Below are positions 6,722-59,270 of a stretch of DNA of 64,000 nt, piece by piece (position 1 is the first letter of the stretch; each line of letters opens with the position of its first letter). The position numbers and the translations under genes were made by a program. The notes beneath the pieces were generated by a model that had not been told where the DNA came from, ran no database searches, and saw only the letters and a list, made by a program, of their open reading frames with translations. Location of the stretch: positions 186,317 through 250,316 of the forward strand of contig JANLFK010000005.1 in NCBI GenBank assembly GCA_024655945.1. Direction: 5' to 3'. Source of the stretch: a candidate division KSB1 bacterium (GTDB lineage Bacteria > Zhuqueibacterota > Zhuqueibacteria > JANLFK01 > Oleimicrobiaceae).

Positions 6722-8503
6722 TCACGCGTGAGACAAAGGCGAGTGGCGCTGCCAGCGGTCCGGCACGCCACGCAGCAGCAAGCGTCCGACCAACATGAGC
6801 AGCGCGAGCGCAGCCACTGCGGCCTTGTACTTGACCTCATCACCGTAGGCGCCCAGCGCGTATACCACCGTCCCCCAGAGCAAGGGTCCGGTGATGGCTG
6901 CCGCCTTTCCCGAAAGCGAGTACAAGCCAAAGAACTCGCCCAGCCTCGCCGCGGGGACCAGGGTCACCAACAGGGGCCTGGCCGAGGTCCAGGTACCGCC
7001 CAAGAACATGCCGATGGCGCAGGCCAGACCCCAAAAGAGGGCCCTGTTGTCGATGGCTACCACCAGCACCAGAGAAACAATCCACCCGGTGAGCACCACC
7101 GTGAGCGCAGACTTGGGACCGAACCGGTCGGTAAGAAGGCCGAAGAGAAAAGAACCGATGGCGGCGGCAGTGGTGGCTACTAAGAAGAACGGCACCACCA
7201 CATCGCTGGAAAAGCCCACCACTTTCACGGCATACACCGCCATGAAAATGATAATCGTCTCCACAGCTTCCTCATAGAAAAACTTGGCTGCCAGGAAGCG
7301 CAGCACCCCAGGCGTCTCTTTGGATTTGGCAAGCCCCGCCACGATGCGCTGCGCCGTCTCCTCGAACTCATGTGCTCCAGGAAAGACCGGCTGCAGGATC
7401 TTGCGGAGCACGAAACGGTGGTAAGCAGCCAGAACGCTGCCCACCTCGACGCGCCCGGACTCGCCTTGCAGCCTTCGGGCGGCAAGACGCCACAGAACAC
7501 AGCCTCCCACGGCTAAGGGCGCGGCAAGGAGAAAAGGAACATAGGCGGCGGCGGGCAGGGCGGCCTGCAGCGAGTTTCGCGCCATCTCCCTTGTCTTTGA
7601 CGGCACCGGCTGGCGGTCCCGCACAAACACAAAGGTGGGTATGGCCGTGAGCAGGAAGAGGAAGCCAGTGGGTAGGAAGCTTCCGACATGCCCCCACCCG
7701 CCCTGATGCCGGTACAATCGCCAGGTGCGGACATCTTCGTGGACGGGCGCCTGCCAGCGCACCATCACCGCGCGCCGCGCGCCTTCCCCCTGAGGCGCCA
7801 AGGTCGTGTCCCGCGCCTGAATACGCATGGGCAGGGCCCTCGCTTTCCCCTGCGCGTCGACAGCCTTCAGGATATACTCATAGTGGGCATCGCGGCCCAC
7901 ACTCACATCAAGGTAGGCGCGCTCCCCACCCTCAAGGCGTGCGACCTCCACCTCTTGCCCGCGCAAAAACGGCACTTCTATCCCCAGGAACTCTATCCCG
8001 CCAGTGACGAAAGGCATGACCACCAGCAGGCCAAAGAAGCTCCCAAGGTAACCCACGGCGACCCCGTACCCGGAGATTTTGCCCATCGTGCGCGGGGTAC
8101 TGACCTCTGGCAAGAGGGCATTGTAGAAGACCAAGCTCCCCTGGTAGGCAAAGTTCGCCAAAATGTAGAACAGGAGGGCACACAAGGCGGTGGGCAGACC
8201 AGGCATGCCGAGCGCACCCACGATGCCGATCATGGCCGTGCCCGCTACGCAGAGCAGGGTCAGTGCGATGAGATACGGCATGCGCGCCCGAAAACGATCC
8301 GAGACCACGCCCAAGACCGGCATGGTCAGCCCCACCAGCACCATGGAAAGGGAGTTGCCAACACTCACCCAGATGTCCTCCATGGCAAGGTTGACCGTCA
8401 TCCACAGCGGGAAGTACATGGTCACCACATTCATGGAGTAGATGGTGTTGGCAAAGTCGTAGAGGATCCATGAGGCAACGGCACGGGCAGGTGCACGGCG
8501 CAT
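6722..8503 (-). CDS. UMF1/Atg22-type MFS permease with a large soluble insert
   Basis: The N-terminus (ASWILYDFANTIYS) carries the signature of the UMF1 / Atg22-like branch of the major facilitator superfamily. The 593-residue protein is longer than the roughly 420-450 usual for bacterial members. The excess is a hydrophilic insert of about 115 residues (about 190-305) after the first six membrane segments. Its second half (MVRWQAPVHEDVRTWRLYRH) resembles a fibronectin type III strand pattern. Six further membrane segments follow, with the MFS loop DRFGPKS. Substrate unknown. Start ATG at 8503 has GGGAG upstream. It lies on the minus strand after a 72-bp gap from the Roadblock gene. Confidence 0.85.
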   Translation of the reverse strand: MRRAPARAVASWILYDFANTIYSMNVVTMYFPLWMTVNLAMEDIWVSVGNSLSMVLVGLTMPVLGVVSDRFRARMPYLIALTLLCVAGTAMIGIVGALGMPGLPTALCALLFYILANFAYQGSLVFYNALLPEVSTPRTMGKISGYGVAVGYLGSFFGLLVVMPFVTGGIEFLGIEVPFLRGQEVEVARLEGGERAYLDVSVGRDAHYEYILKAVDAQGKARALPMRIQARDTTLAPQGEGARRAVMVRWQAPVHEDVRTWRLYRHQGGWGHVGSFLPTGFLFLLTAIPTFVFVRDRQPVPSKTREMARNSLQAALPAAAYVPFLLAAPLAVGGCVLWRLAARRLQGESGRVEVGSVLAAYHRFVLRKILQPVFPGAHEFEETAQRIVAGLAKSKETPGVLRFLAAKFFYEEAVETIIIFMAVYAVKVVGFSSDVVVPFFLVATTAAAIGSFLFGLLTDRFGPKSALTVVLTGWIVSLVLVVAIDNRALFWGLACAIGMFLGGTWTSARPLLVTLVPAARLGEFFGLYSLSGKAAAITGPLLWGTVVYALGAYGDEVKYKAAVAALALLMLVGRLLLRGVPDRWQRHSPLSHA

Positions 8504-49696: not shown

Positions 49697-51328
49697 TCAA
49701 AAGCCCAGGCGCTGCAACCTCTCTTTCTCGGTGAGTTCATGGCCTGTGGCCAAGTCTATGGCCACGCAGGCGCCGTTCTTCATCTGCGTGGCCACCTTGC
49801 CTGCCGCATGGGGGTTGCCGCAGAGATGGGGGGCATCGAGAATGCCCACTTGCACTGCCCGCGCCAGGTTCTCCGGCTCAGACCACGGATCGTCCACGTG
49901 GTGTGCAGGGAGGGCGCGGATTGCCTCGAGCAGGAGCTTGGCATCGGCCAGGAGTTGCTCCTTCCGCTCGCTGACCAGATGGGACTCCGCCACTGGCAGC
50001 GCGCCCAAGCTATGGTTTTGGATCACGCCGCGCACAATCGCCGCGCTCTCGATAATCTCCTCTGGGGTGGCCGCATGATGGCCCTCACAGAAAGCCACCA
50101 CGTGCACGATGTGCGGCTCTAAGGCCAGCTGGTAGAAGGTTGACGCGGCCAGTTGGCCTTTTGCCACATCGGCTGCCGTGCTCATGCTCGCCAGCCCGGT
50201 GCGCGTCTGGCGGACGCTTACGAAGCCATCGTCGTGCAGCGATTCGATGAGAGCCACCTTGGCCAGCATCTTGGCAAGGTCCATGGGCGCAGAGGTGCGC
50301 GCCGGGGTATTGAACATGTACTGCGCCACATAATGGCGGGCCCCGCTCCTCTTGGCATTGTAGGCCGCCAAGAATGCGGCTGCCACGGCCACGCTGTCCG
50401 GCGCCTCGCGCAGGCTCCAGTGGTGCGCTTCGTTCACTTCCAGGGGGATGCCATGACTGGCGTACCAGCGCATAGCCTCCTGGTTCTCGCGGATGGCCTC
50501 AGGCAGAGCCCGGTCAGAGCGGCCGTCCAGCACATTGTACCAGAAGAGTGGCACCGCGCCCCAAGCGACGTTGATGGTCTCGGCGAGCATCTCCGCCCAG
50601 CGCACCAGGTCGCGGGTGCCGGCGTAGCAGCGCAGCAGCGGGTAGTTGCCGCGGCGGGTCGCTTCGTAGATGGCGCGCAGGTCGGCCGGCGATCGCAGTG
50701 GTACTCCGCCGGCGCCATCCAGCTCCGGTCGCATCTCCTCCTGGCGAAAGAAGCACTCCTGAGCGTTCTGGTCTGGCGCGATGGACAAGACGTCAATGGC
50801 GCCCGCCATGGCAAGCTGGCGTGCTCCGGCGATGGTGGCGCTGAGGTCGGGCAGCCCAAAGTGGTGCCGCAGTATCGGCGAAGGCGCGGCAGCGGCAACG
50901 CGCGCCATCAGGGTCTGCGGGGGCTGCGCCGGGGCGATTGTCTGGCTCCTCTTGGCGAAAAAGGCCTCCACCTCCTCGCTGGTGGCGTCGCCAAAGACGG
51001 CGGCAAAAAGGCCGCTGCGCCGTGCCACCTCTGCCGCCGGAGGCGTGCCGCCGAACAGCCAGACCTTGTCCTGCCAGCCGCGCCGGGCAATGAGCTGCCG
51101 CAACGAAGCGAGAATGGGTTCCAAGGTCTCTGCCGTCAAGCGATAGCTCACCGCAATCGCCTCGGGCTGGTGTTGGTCGATCGCCTGCTCCAGGCGCTCC
51201 ACCCCTACCGCAGCGCCAAGGAAATGCGTGTCGTAGCCGTGGCGCTCGGCAATCCTGAGGAAAGACAGGACGCCTGCCACGTGCACGCACCCGCCCAAAG
51301 CCCCGGCGATCATCGTCCGTCGTGCCAT
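49697..51328 (-). CDS. Cobalamin-binding-domain protein with TIM-barrel-like region, unknown substrate
   Basis: A 543-residue cytoplasmic protein. The first about 130 residues look like a B12-binding Rossmann-like domain: the lower-ligand motif D-x-H-x-x-G appears as CVHVAG (C14, H16, G19), followed by VSYRLT and FGGTPPA. The remainder (about 155-480) resembles the barrel of adenosylcobalamin mutases such as glutamate mutase E, with AIDVLSIAPDQNAQE, PLFWYNVLDGRSDR and NEAHHWSLREAP. I do not recognise a specific enzyme. The Cys for Asp change is unusual. It starts 3 bp after the octopine-dehydrogenase-like gene, so the two products probably act in one pathway. Confidence 0.65.
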   Translation of the reverse strand: MARRTMIAGALGGCVHVAGVLSFLRIAERHGYDTHFLGAAVGVERLEQAIDQHQPEAIAVSYRLTAETLEPILASLRQLIARRGWQDKVWLFGGTPPAAEVARRSGLFAAVFGDATSEEVEAFFAKRSQTIAPAQPPQTLMARVAAAAPSPILRHHFGLPDLSATIAGARQLAMAGAIDVLSIAPDQNAQECFFRQEEMRPELDGAGGVPLRSPADLRAIYEATRRGNYPLLRCYAGTRDLVRWAEMLAETINVAWGAVPLFWYNVLDGRSDRALPEAIRENQEAMRWYASHGIPLEVNEAHHWSLREAPDSVAVAAAFLAAYNAKRSGARHYVAQYMFNTPARTSAPMDLAKMLAKVALIESLHDDGFVSVRQTRTGLASMSTAADVAKGQLAASTFYQLALEPHIVHVVAFCEGHHAATPEEIIESAAIVRGVIQNHSLGALPVAESHLVSERKEQLLADAKLLLEAIRALPAHHVDDPWSEPENLARAVQVGILDAPHLCGNPHAAGKVATQMKNGACVAIDLATGHELTEKERLQRLGF

Positions 51329-51331
51329 CGT

Positions 51332-52492
51332 TCACACCTCCCCGCTCACCGCCAGCAGGCGAATCTCTTTGACCGACTTGCCCCGCAAGCCGAGCGAATC
51401 GACTGTTCTGCCCTTCTTCCAAAAGTCCACTCCCCGCATCAGCGAGGAAAGATGGATGATGGCCTTGATCGTCGGCGTCTCCACCTTCAGCATTTCGCCG
51501 ATGGAAGCGATGGGCACCAGGCTCATCGGCACGTCCTCGTCGATGTAGCGGTGATGGAGGCGATCAGGCGCTTTGATGCCCACATAACCCGGGTTGTCGT
51601 GCATGGCTTCGTAGAGGTTTTCCCCAGTGGCGCTGTACGCGGTGTACAACCAGTTGCGCGCGCTCATGGCGCGAATGCCCAGGGCTGCAGCCACATCCAG
51701 CCGTTCCTTGTCAATGCGTTCCAACACGCGCGTGACCGACCTGCTTGCGCCTTGCACGTAGTATTCAAAGTCGCCGTGCGTCTCCTCGATCCAGGCAGCA
51801 TTCAGCACAGTCAAAGCTGGATGAAAGACCGCGCCGATGTTGTCGAAACTTGTTTTGAAGACATTGTCGCCGGGCACAAATTGCGGAAAGGCGCGGTTGA
51901 TGACCTTCAGTACACCGGGGATCCAGTAAGCGGGGAGCGTGGCCACGGGCACGGCTGCCTTGACAGAAAAGATCTTGGCATGTGCTGGCCCGAGTGCGCG
52001 GGAGGCATAAAGGAACGTCTGGGCCTCGGCAATGAACGGCAGCTCAGCGACGCCATGCTGGCGCAACACGTGATGGAACTCCAAGGCGCCGCCGGTGCGC
52101 CCTGGGTTGAGCACGACGATCTGGTGGGGTTTGATGTGTGACGCGCAGACTTCTGCCATGTAGCGATGACCGGTGGCCGGCACCACGACCATCAGCACAT
52201 CCACCCCCTCCAGGCACTCGGCGATATCGCTGGAGGCGACAGCCACCTTGCCGAACCCTTTGACTTCGCCCTCCAACCTGATACCGCCCCGCTCCTGGAC
52301 CGGCTGAATGCGCCGCCTTCCACGGTTGAAGAGGTTGACCTGGAACCCCATGATGCCCAAGTGGCCAGCCATGGCCAGTCCTCCATGACCTGCGCCCAGC
52401 ACGCAGAACTTGAGCTCCTTGGGGTCCTTGGCGAGCATGGCCTTCAGGTAGGCCCGGCGCCGGCTGTCCATGTCGGTGGCGCTGCAATTCAT
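51332..52492 (-). CDS. NAD(P)-dependent octopine/nopaline dehydrogenase family protein
   Basis: A 386-residue dehydrogenase. The nucleotide-binding motif is VLGAGHGGLAMAGHLG (about 30-45) and the N-terminal domain ends in LMVVVPATGH. The C-terminal octopine dehydrogenase domain carries the catalytic His region FDNIGAVFHPALTVLNAAWIE. Opine dehydrogenases join an amino acid and a 2-oxo acid reductively; many bacterial relatives have other substrates. The ATG at 52492 has GGAGG 8 bp upstream. It is followed 3 bp later by the cobalamin-binding gene. No B12 riboswitch-like sequence was seen upstream. Confidence 0.87.
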   Translation of the reverse strand: MNCSATDMDSRRRAYLKAMLAKDPKELKFCVLGAGHGGLAMAGHLGIMGFQVNLFNRGRRRIQPVQERGGIRLEGEVKGFGKVAVASSDIAECLEGVDVLMVVVPATGHRYMAEVCASHIKPHQIVVLNPGRTGGALEFHHVLRQHGVAELPFIAEAQTFLYASRALGPAHAKIFSVKAAVPVATLPAYWIPGVLKVINRAFPQFVPGDNVFKTSFDNIGAVFHPALTVLNAAWIEETHGDFEYYVQGASRSVTRVLERIDKERLDVAAALGIRAMSARNWLYTAYSATGENLYEAMHDNPGYVGIKAPDRLHHRYIDEDVPMSLVPIASIGEMLKVETPTIKAIIHLSSLMRGVDFWKKGRTVDSLGLRGKSVKEIRLLAVSGEV

Positions 52493-52702
52493 TTTCATCC
52501 CCTCCTCTTCTCGTGAGGCGCTTCCTTCCTCGGCCATTTGCCGACCTGCGTTCCAGGCCAAGAGGGCGGCTCAATCAACCGACGGCAGAATACCTCGTCG
52601 CGAAGAGCCAGTAGGCTCCCCTTCTCCCCTGAAGTCCTGTGCCCCCTCGGCGAAAGACCAGCGTGTTGTCCCCGCCTGCTGCGTCCGTGGAGGGCGGTAC
52701 GA

Positions 52703-54045: not shown

Positions 54046-54933
54046 TTAAAACGGCCTCTCGATAGTTTGATTCGTTGGAGGCGTTTCCAAGTGCTCGTCG
54101 AGTTTTTCCTGAAGCAACTTGATGAAATCCTCCATCCTCCCGGGCGACGGGGTGGTGATGGCAAGCAGGGCAGGCTCAAATTCAGTAAAAACCTCATCCA
54201 CCTTCGTCAGATAATATCGCCCTACCCCATGCCGCTCTTCCACGCTCAGCTCCCAATCATAGATGAGCCACGCAATATCCGCACCACTTTTCGGAACCCG
54301 TTTCAGAGCGGGTAAAGTGGCAAAGAAACTTTTGTTCAACGCCACGGCTATTTTCTTTTTCCAACTGTGCAAGATTCCACCCTTGTAAACAAGCTGAGGA
54401 ACAAGTCTTTTTCGAGAAGATGAAAGGTAATCGGGACGAGGATAGTTCGGCTCGCCAGACCAATCCATAGAAGCCCTGCTTTGTGGATTGCCCATGTAAT
54501 ACTCGAATGGTTCACGGACGTTGCCGAAAATATAGACTGCTTGAATCTCAAGGGCACCGAAGTCAATAACCTTGCCACTATCGTCATATGCGACAAGAAC
54601 CACGTCAATGTTTCCCGCAGACTTGCCATGAGCATCATTTAAACGAACCTCAGTCAGAGAAGTCCACTGTGTTCCCTCCCCCAAAAAGAAAGCTGCAGCA
54701 TGGTCGGCTATAATCCAGTCCTGACGAAATCGGATGGGACAGGTAATGACAGGATCGTTGTCATGATAGATGCTGCACACACCGAGAGGGTTCTTTGCCT
54801 TGTCTTTTGTGCAATTCAGCACCTTGTTGCTGAAAGGGCAGAGACGAAGGGAGCGGTATCGCCTGGCTGTCTCGGTTTGGTCCTCAATCAGGTAACCAAA
54901 GACCTCTGCCAGTGGCTGTCCACCACGATTCAT
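54046..54933 (-). CDS. NotI-family type II restriction endonuclease
   Basis: A 295-residue protein with the layout of NotI-like enzymes. An N-terminal Cys4 metal site (C32, C41, C53, C65, in LCPFSNKVLNC...GVC...TCPIRF) corresponds to the iron-binding site of NotI. The PD-(D/E)xK core is NID (D110) followed by ALEIQA (E129, Q131), as in NotI. Recognition sequence cannot be deduced. The region is AT-richer than the surroundings and uses less GC-rich codons, suggesting acquisition. GGAAGG lies before the ATG and a promoter is at 55023-54995. Its neighbouring methylase is broken, so either protection comes from elsewhere or the nuclease is inactive. Confidence 0.85.
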   Translation of the reverse strand: MNRGGQPLAEVFGYLIEDQTETARRYRSLRLCPFSNKVLNCTKDKAKNPLGVCSIYHDNDPVITCPIRFRQDWIIADHAAAFFLGEGTQWTSLTEVRLNDAHGKSAGNIDVVLVAYDDSGKVIDFGALEIQAVYIFGNVREPFEYYMGNPQSRASMDWSGEPNYPRPDYLSSSRKRLVPQLVYKGGILHSWKKKIAVALNKSFFATLPALKRVPKSGADIAWLIYDWELSVEERHGVGRYYLTKVDEVFTEFEPALLAITTPSPGRMEDFIKLLQEKLDEHLETPPTNQTIERPF

Positions 54934-58328: not shown

Positions 58329-59270
58329 CTATTGGCTCACTTCGCCCTCTTCCCAGGTTGCCGAAAGCAGATAGCTCCTCGACTCGCCTGCGATCTCCAC
58401 CTCTATGACCTTGCCCTGCGCGTGCAGCTCGGCCAGGGCCTGGCGGATGTCGCAAAGCTCCCAGTCGAACAGACGCGCAATGTGCCCCGGCCAGGAGACC
58501 AGCACCGTACTGAAGTACTTCTCCAGGACCTTTGTCCGCGCTTGCTGCGGTTCGATCTCCTGCGCTGTCTGGAGCTCCGCTGCGAAACGCCGCCCCACCA
58601 GGTCCCACACAAAGGTGAAAGGCTCATAGAGCTCCGCCACCTTGACGACGTACAGCTTCATCTGCAGCTCGGCCATGGCCCGATCGAATTCATAGCGCTG
58701 GGCAGGACTGGCAAGTCGGCTCGCTTCTTTCAGCTCGCGGGTGATGCGCGGAGAGCGCTCGACCAACGCGTCCATGATGCGCTTGGCGCCGGGACTAAGG
58801 TGGCCGCGCCTGTGCGCGTGGAGATAGTCCGCGGCCTCGCCTGTCACGCCTCGCGTGCTGGCGAAGTACGGGAAATACTCCAAGGAAATCATCGTGGGGC
58901 GGGAACGCAGCGCCTTGCCGTAGTAGATTTTCTTCTCGGCGGCAAGGACGTCCTTCGCTTCCCAGACCAGCCCGATGGACCAGTCATGCTGAATGTGCTC
59001 GGGCATCTGCGGGTTCCGTTCCCCGCAGACGGCATGCCAAAGGCAGGGGAGCTCAGAGCGCTGTGCGGCAAAGGCAAAACAGAAACCCACCTGATTCACA
59101 AAGGCCAAGGCCTCTTCCACCGAGGTGACGCGCAACTGGCTGGTGCGCCGATAGAGGCGATCACGCCGCTGCTCGATGCCCTCCCAGGTCAGGCGTAAAG
59201 GCCTGATACCGGCTCGGCGAGCTTGCGGCGCAGCGCGACGTGCCGCAGGAGGGGCCCCATGTCTCGTCAC
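58329..59270 (-). CDS. AlkZ-related winged-helix protein
   Basis: A 313-residue protein. The N-terminal half (LTWEGIEQRRDRLYRR; VTSVEEALAFVNQVGF) and the C-terminal winged-helix segment (FDWELCDIRQALAELHAQGKV) resemble the AlkZ/YcaQ family of DNA glycosylases and their less characterised relatives. The QxQ/QxD catalytic motif of true AlkZ is not evident, so glycosylase activity is doubtful. The start is a GTG at 59270 overlapping the peroxiredoxin stop by 4 bp, so the two are translationally coupled. Confidence 0.6.
   Translation of the reverse strand: MTRHGAPPAARRAAPQARRAGIRPLRLTWEGIEQRRDRLYRRTSQLRVTSVEEALAFVNQVGFCFAFAAQRSELPCLWHAVCGERNPQMPEHIQHDWSIGLVWEAKDVLAAEKKIYYGKALRSRPTMISLEYFPYFASTRGVTGEAADYLHAHRRGHLSPGAKRIMDALVERSPRITRELKEASRLASPAQRYEFDRAMAELQMKLYVVKVAELYEPFTFVWDLVGRRFAAELQTAQEIEPQQARTKVLEKYFSTVLVSWPGHIARLFDWELCDIRQALAELHAQGKVIEVEIAGESRSYLLSATWEEGEVSQ

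Follow-up and report, generated by a model that had tools for sequence, protein, structure and literature searches.

A fused B12-domain mutase encoded beside an opine dehydrogenase: a candidate new adenosylcobalamin mutase subfamily and its conserved partner

Organization of the locus

The 64,000-nucleotide stretch of contig JANLFK010000005.1 analysed here (hereafter the window), from a candidate division KSB1 bacterium, carries two adjacent genes on its minus strand, the first coding for an opine dehydrogenase (gene 1) and the second for a protein in which a B12-binding domain is fused ahead of a mutase-like TIM barrel (gene 2). An earlier note, made from the letters of the window alone, had drawn attention to this pair, and both open reading frames are indeed found where it had placed them, dehydrogenase first and separated by 3 bp. 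Its naming of gene 1 as an octopine/nopaline dehydrogenase homologue agrees with a strong match to Pfam Octopine_DH (PF02317; E 2.2e-48, 164.5 bits against a cut-off of 30). An alternative TTG start at 52561 would lengthen the gene 1 product to 409 aa. The features of the pair are collected in Table 1.

Table 1. Features of the dehydrogenase-mutase pair (window coordinates; residue numbers are those of the respective protein)
Feature	Coordinates	Strand	Remarks
Opine dehydrogenase gene (gene 1)	51332..52492	minus	386 aa from ATG; predicted NAD(P)H type with mODH-subclass signature
B12-dependent mutase gene (gene 2), putative	49697..51328	minus	543 aa; B12 domain fused ahead of TIM barrel; Pfam, AlphaFold and PDB matches
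Shine-Dalgarno-like GGGGAGGTG for gene 2	51335..51343	minus	Within the end of gene 1; read from the sequence
B12-binding Rossmann domain, residues 1-129	50942..51328	minus	Model residues 2-129 on 4jgi, Z 16.2, rmsd 2.2; 1y80, Z 15.5
CVHVAG motif, residues 14-19	51272..51289	minus	At the place of DxHxxG; H16 is the putative cobalt ligand
Mutase TIM barrel, residues 133-537	49718..50932	minus	1cb7_B match over model residues 133-536
Dehydrogenase R132 codon (ArODH position 111)	52097..52099	minus	Acidic-substrate determinant (PMC10787698, as cited below); Arg 74/74
Dehydrogenase G220 codon (ArODH position 198)	51833..51835	minus	Second determinant; Gly 74/74

Conservation of the pair

A scan of 84,980 species genomes returned 176 relatives of the mutase in 204 candidate stretches, and the best 80 of the 176 were kept; adjacency counts given below refer to these 80 loci, tblastn included. 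In 79/80 loci the mutase gene has a dehydrogenase gene next to it, upstream on the same strand in 77 and downstream in two (L077 and L089). Counted among the 79 are three loci (L016, L028 and L052) where the fetched stretch begins inside the adjoining dehydrogenase gene; in L085 the dehydrogenase is split into two open reading frames (256 and 142 aa, at about 6831-8000), by a frameshift or an assembly error. No dehydrogenase is seen in the sole exception, L011, whose contig stops 110 bp past the mutase gene. In 31/70 pairs the two genes share exactly 4 or 1 bp (gaps being taken from open reading frame ends and the first possible start codon).

Within the phylum of the window a relative is found in 5/82 genomes, three belonging to the window's genus, with its own genome among them, and two being more remote (32 and 31% identity), and the dehydrogenase is present beside the mutase in all four of the relatives from this phylum. 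The 80 kept loci come mostly from Bacillota and Armatimonadota, and also from Chloroflexota, Planctomycetota, a Thorarchaeon, a Methanoculleus and an Aminicenantes metagenome-assembled genome (MAG), the last being, in a quick tree and among the kept loci, the nearest neighbour of the window outside its genus. The linkage spans six named phyla and more. In the class of Thermoanaerobacter wiegelii, 21/37 genomes have one mutase match each (one match being partial). One scan of viral contigs gave 62 pattern matches and no mutase relative, and a plasmid collection gave no mutase match at E 1e-10. The neighbourhood survey that the earlier note had proposed finds a conserved pair, and since the linkage holds over many lineages and in both gene orders, it speaks strongly for adjacency that is not due to chance and for a joint function of the two genes.

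Fold and cobalamin site of the mutase

Pfam finds a B12-binding domain in the gene 2 product (E 1e-11, residues 6-119), and four NCBIfam models touch the protein (OraE, MtgC and two of methylaspartate mutase S), all far below their cut-offs; the glutamate mutase model TIGR01503 is not one of the four. The AlphaFold model, computed from a 63-row alignment (58/80 loci, the window and its relatives L002 to L005), has a pLDDT of 92.4 and a pTM of 0.83. Structural searches place its N-terminal domain within the B12-binding fold (Table 1), a regulator-type structure (8jbt, Z 15.7) being matched as well. The barrel, which the earlier note had called mutase-like, is best matched by the E subunit of glutamate mutase (1cb7_B; Z 33.4, root-mean-square deviation 3.0 Å, 373 aligned residues, 16% identity), followed by lysine 5,6-aminomutase (Z 30.6), ornithine 4,5-aminomutase (Z 27.2) and methylmalonyl-CoA mutase (Z 22.8), so that all of the enzymes with which the note had proposed a structural comparison are matched, glutamate mutase best.

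The B12 pattern reported for gene 2 is present in full (C14-V-H16-V-A-G19, S61-Y-R-L64 and G93-G94). In an 85-row comparison (the 80 loci, the window and L002 to L005) the putative cobalt-ligand histidine H16 is invariant (85/85), and in the 63-row alignment so is the arginine of the second motif (R63, 63/63). The residue two before the histidine is Cys in 74/85 and Asp in 11/85, the Asp version being found, among others, in the two Thermoanaerobacterium loci and the two distant members. The earlier note was correct in seeing a Cys where Asp is normally found; it is not peculiar to this gene, and appears from its distribution to be a widespread and tolerated trait of the family rather than the decay of a single gene. 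Because Cys is the family rule and alternates with Asp, the altered affinity that the note had thought possible need not follow, and Cys at this place need not mean weak B12 binding.

The two distant members (L004, 862-2733, and L005, 856-2517) form another branch of the mutase family, deeply separated from the first (31-32% identity), and show a canonical DxHxxG motif, the same kind of dehydrogenase upstream, and a Pfam B12 match that is absent or below threshold. The L004 protein (32% identity) gives no Pfam match even at E 1; its AlphaFold model (pLDDT 87.2) ties glutamate mutase (Z 27.9) with lysine aminomutase (Z 27.1), and matches IcmF over both domains (465 aligned residues, 5.4 Å, Z 16.8).

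The active site compared with glutamate mutase and aminomutases

Active-site roles in glutamate mutase are described for R66, R100, R149, E171, Y177 and Y181, and a place at the coenzyme site for Gly68, in PMC10947579; Glu330, like the residues that correspond to it, is in contact with the adenosyl group (PMC4413051). To map these positions, the mutases of the pair were aligned by MAFFT with two true glutamate mutases (L090 and L091), at an identity of about 16%; in this alignment the residues of the arginine claw fall at their published numbers. Gly68 and Glu330 (E329 in L091) correspond to G158 and E415, each 63/63. The claw residues R66, R100 and R149, together with E171, correspond to H156, Q190, Y235 and A255, again each 63/63. 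The place of Y177 is held by Tyr in 59/63 and Phe in 4/63, and Y181 is not kept. Two arginines, R154 and R233, are invariant, each standing two residues before a claw position on the strand concerned. The coenzyme machinery seems to have been kept, and the substrate pocket seems to have been rebuilt.

These invariant residues bear on the possibility that gene 2 encodes no mutase at all, its B12 domain serving as a sensor or being a relic. The Cys in 74/85 and the B12-binding domains of regulators such as 8jbt could be taken in its favour, yet the histidine, the coenzyme glutamate and many barrel residues are invariant, and a gene for GlmL is linked to the pair in 4/80 loci (see below), which leaves this explanation very improbable.

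A relationship to the pyridoxal phosphate (PLP)-dependent aminomutases of the ornithine or lysine type, which would make the protein an enzyme that shifts an amino group, is another alternative, as these enzymes come second to glutamate mutase in fold (Z 30.6 and 27.2, and in L004 27.1 against 27.9), ornithine aminomutase is the best single-sequence PDB match (E 2.6e-5), and residues near H302 and Y264 resemble those of ornithine or lysine aminomutase. The PLP lysine of aminomutases sits on the Rossmann domain (Lys629/Lys144, as numbered in the part of PMC3958899 cited). Its place, eleven residues after the cobalt-ligand histidine, holds Lys in 0/85; lysine is found nine residues after the histidine in 7/85 and seventeen after it in 9/85, this being the maximum at any of places 7 to 18, and the 63-row alignment has no invariant lysine. 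PF09043, too, has no match in gene 2 at E up to 1, and we regard an aminomutase as quite unlikely. Leucine aminomutase, an as yet unassigned B12 activity, was also considered, and the gene context offered nothing for it. As the places of the claw arginines and Glu171 are taken by different invariant residues, and no PLP lysine is present, the protein would be neither a glutamate mutase nor a PLP aminomutase. This favours, from sequence and model, the earlier note's suggestion of a carbon-skeleton mutase working with an N-substituted amino acid dehydrogenase, the barrel being glutamate-mutase-like.

The dehydrogenase and its substrate signature

The gene 1 product matches PDB 1bg6 over residues 28-378 (E 5.8e-72). 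In a 74-row alignment (73/80 loci and the window), H202, R292 and D297 of 1bg6 correspond to H224, R315 and D320, kept in 74/74, 73/74 and 73/74 (one gap). Six dehydrogenases from hot springs (mODHs), about 40% identical to ArODH, have been described as a new subclass that favours acidic amino acids and pyruvate; in the sections cited, Arg111 and Gly198 set a preference for L-Asp over L-Phe, and Arg at position 35 goes with NADPH (PMC10787698). The first two positions are R132 and G220 of our protein, both invariant (Table 1), and the third is R57 (70/74). Other positions listed for the subclass agree to varying degrees (position 34 Asn/Ser 74/74; 36 Ser/Thr 59/74; 14 His 51/74; 291 His 39/74) or mostly disagree (108 His 8/74; 157 Arg 5/74; 253 Arg 7/74). 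By its two determinant residues, the dehydrogenase is assigned to the mODH subclass that prefers acidic amino acids. The printed kinetics of mODH-582 on aspartate are poor (KM 24.8 mM, kcat 0.9 per s; PMC10787698, same sections), and another acidic amino acid may therefore be the true substrate.

Five plasmid-borne homologues (H1, H2, H4, H5 and H12), chosen by us from 40 of 270 records, served as controls. They have His, His, Asn, Ala and Ser at position 132, where ArODH has Ala, and Asn at position 220 in 5/5, as in ArODH. The identity of these controls to the dehydrogenase of the pair is lower (26-32%), and the R132/G220 signature could mark a clade rather than the partnership with a mutase; either way, it would favour acidic substrates.

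Linked genes and genome background

Neighbours of the pair were compared with profiles for 61/87 neighbour proteins, near-duplicates having been dropped by eye. A gene for GlmL, the glutamate mutase accessory protein or reactivase, lies directly downstream in 4/80 loci (L065, L072, L084 and L085), the two such neighbours tested against NCBIfam exceeding the cut-off by 21 bits and by 0.2. Two kinds of ligase genes recur as well. An AsnB-like gene adjoins the pair in 8/80 loci (L012, L021, L029, L030, L043, L049, L051 and L053); in 8/8 the TTIR of E. coli AsnB is replaced by ALVR or LLVR, and the N-terminal glutaminase Cys is missing in 4/8 (L012, L049, L051 and L053). A ninth AsnB-like gene, in L054, is neither adjacent nor provided with the motif. 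We take the adjoining genes to code perhaps for a dedicated ligase of beta-lactam-synthetase-like logic. A D-Ala-D-Ala-ligase-like gene adjoins the pair in 11 other loci (L031, L032, L035, L047, L055, L063, L065, L067, L079, L083 and L087), on the same strand in 9 and divergently in 2. The three proteins of this kind that were tested (3/3) score below the cut-offs of the NCBIfam ligase models listed for them, and the one protein compared with solved structures has ligases in the PDB as its closest relatives.

The two sets of ligase loci do not overlap. On the quick tree the AsnB-like and D-Ala-D-Ala-ligase-like links require 5 changes each and the GlmL link 2, so these associations would have been gained or lost several times. 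The recurrence of ligase genes beside the pair suggests that its product is sometimes carried on to an amide. In the window, no AsnB-like or D-Ala-D-Ala-ligase-like gene stands beside the pair. The next gene downstream there, convergent with the pair, codes for a Na+/H+ antiporter (PF03553; 48241-49665, plus strand), which holds the same place in the two other genomes of the genus (L002 and L003) and has no match in the other loci (0/80).

Further neighbours were noted along the way. A YheO-like regulator with PAS and helix-turn-helix domains lies upstream of the mutase gene, at a distance of about 2 kb, in L012, L019, L021, L030 and L043 (Thermoanaerobacter, Caldanaerobacter and a Clostridia MAG). 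V-type ATPase genes, probably a lineage-specific feature, follow the pair in 11 Bacillota loci (e.g. L015, L017, L042 and L070), and DUF502, which also looks lineage-specific, precedes it in 5. Elsewhere in the window, a homologue of NotI-type restriction endonucleases is encoded at 54046-54933 (minus strand; Pfam NotI, E 8.9e-66) and an AlkZ-related protein at 58329-59270 (minus strand; PF24741, E 7e-30).

Opine dehydrogenases are reversible, and many carriers of the pair are presumably fermenters. A catabolic pair, degrading environmental opines or glycation-type N-carboxyalkyl amino acids, could accordingly be envisaged, and the YheO-like regulator in 5 loci would suit it. No widely recurring uptake system accompanies the pair, however (a transporter of the MFS type follows it in 3 loci, and ABC ATPases occur at scattered distances in 9), and the linked genes that do recur are ligases, suggesting synthesis; we consider degradation unlikely.

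The genome of the window encodes a CobA/BtuR corrinoid adenosyltransferase and has B12-binding domains in 7 places, gene 2 included. It gave no match for GlmE (TIGR01503, at E up to 10, gene 2 again included) or for a PduO-type adenosyltransferase (PF01923). Among 20 pair-bearing genomes tested, a true GlmE occurs in 2/20 and a GlmL-family gene over the cut-off in 13/20. The pair therefore cannot simply be equated with the glutamate mutase operon, and GlmL does not always go along with it.

A related but distinct idea, overlapping the reading we prefer, is that gene 2 encodes a variant glutamate mutase that isomerises a free acidic amino acid (e.g. glutamate to a 3-methylaspartate-like product), which the dehydrogenase would then condense with pyruvate. 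The closest fold, the GlmL genes adjoining in 4/80 loci and the Tyr kept in 59/63 (Phe in 4) at the place of Y177 are all consistent with it, as is a partner subclass that prefers acidic amino acids and whose poor aspartate kinetics leave room for another (PMC10787698, in the data cited above). Yet three claw arginines and Glu171 are replaced in 63/63 and Y181 is not kept, a true glutamate mutase coexists with the pair in 2/20 genomes, and TIGR01503 finds nothing in the genome of the window. We hold this explanation to be possible, though it falls well short of even chances.

A proposed pathway

On balance we think it probable that the pair represents a new subfamily of adenosylcobalamin (AdoCbl) mutases acting in series with an opine dehydrogenase for acidic amino acids, the two enzymes carrying out consecutive steps of an anaerobic pathway. 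From the computed fold, cofactor-site residues, gene linkage and dehydrogenase signature we infer the use of AdoCbl, the substrate, the direction and a radical step, as follows. The gene 1 product, preferring NADPH, would join an acidic L-amino acid of the aspartate or glutamate type reductively to pyruvate, or catalyse the reverse. The gene 2 product would hold cobalamin base-off on His16 in its N-terminal Rossmann domain; a substrate filling the barrel would lead to breakage of the Co-C bond, and the adenosyl radical would abstract a hydrogen from this substrate, a group then migrating 1,2 as in glutamate mutase, with no need for PLP.

Judging from the mapped residues, the substrate is unlikely to be glutamate in the pose that it takes in glutamate mutase. 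Our first choice, held with somewhat less than even confidence, is the opine itself, e.g. N-(1-carboxyethyl)-aspartate or -glutamate as the product of the dehydrogenase, since the residues that grip a free alpha-amino acid are lost and two new invariant arginines have appeared, presumably deeper in the barrel. The second choice, in which an acidic amino acid would be isomerised ahead of the dehydrogenase step, is more doubtful. The rearranged opine might further be closed, or coupled through an amide, by AsnB-like or D-Ala-D-Ala-ligase-like ligases used interchangeably, making the route a B12 counterpart to PylB-PylC-PylD; this extension is speculative and on present evidence rather unlikely.

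Several observations weigh against the pathway as proposed. Rfam finds no cobalamin riboswitch in the window, nor in the 10/80 loci searched. A profile-profile comparison of the barrel with 2 GlmE, 4 KamD and 2 OraE sequences was not significant, and the kinship of the barrels thus rests on fold; the active-site map comes from a sequence alignment at low identity, and some residues around H302 and Y264 look like those of ornithine or lysine aminomutase. GlmL gave no match in the genome of the window, and is not found over the cut-off in all of the pair-bearing genomes tested (13/20). As for the dehydrogenase, R57 is found in 2/5 plasmid controls too, and PMC10787698, in the sections cited, does not trace the mODHs to mutase-bearing operons.

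If the pathway is nevertheless correct, it would add one more family of AdoCbl mutases, and a widespread one, with 176 relative-encoding stretches in 84,980 species genomes. Few such families have been described, and it is the substrate that defines each of them. As the substrate class of the partner is known in vitro from look-alikes, the candidates for the mutase substrate would form a short list, making the pathway directly testable, and cultured Thermoanaerobacter and Thermoanaerobacterium carry the pair and could be used for this purpose. The pair may also place the hot-spring opine dehydrogenases in a natural context, and the family constitutes a natural experiment on Cys versus Asp beside the cobalt ligand. 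Should the opine-mutase-ligase route exist, for which we see rather little likelihood at present, it would lead to a metabolite that derives from amino acids and is distributed across both bacteria and archaea.

Comparison with known systems

PylB, PylC and PylD are an amino acid mutase, an ATP-grasp ligase and a dehydrogenase, PylB being a radical SAM enzyme and not a B12 enzyme, and the likeness of the proposed route to this system is one of logic only. With glutamate mutase (GlmS/GlmE), the mutase of the pair shares the B12 Rossmann domain and TIM barrel, the best fold match, the Glu and Gly at the adenosyl and coenzyme sites, and linkage to GlmL in 4/80 loci; it differs in being fused into one 543-aa chain with the B12 domain first, where GlmS and GlmE are separate subunits, and also in its low identity (16%), the loss of the claw and Glu171, the Cys in place of Asp and the opine dehydrogenase partner. 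With OraE and KamDE it has in common the fold of barrel and B12 domain, a B12 domain detectable by sequence and the likeness around H302 and Y264, whereas its B12 domain is N-terminal, the PLP lysine is lacking and PF09043 does not match. Compared with base-off/His-on AdoCbl mutases at large, it keeps the cobalt histidine and the adenosyl-ribose Glu (E415, 63/63), the Asp being variant.

The dehydrogenase resembles ArODH/CENDH (1BG6) and the mODHs in its His-Asp dyad and full-length match, and the mODHs more particularly in the Arg111/Gly198 pair and Arg35 (PMC10787698, in the sections cited). The mODHs were studied as isolated biocatalysts, and the word "cobalamin" is absent from the main text of that paper. 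Fifteen cobamide-dependent families are surveyed in PMC6461909, and our literature search for both enzymes together, within the portions of the papers it covered, found no work that joins a B12 mutase with an opine dehydrogenase. Within the literature searched, then, what is already familiar in this pair is the fold and, presumably, the radical chemistry, and what would be new is the mutase subfamily and its opine dehydrogenase partner.

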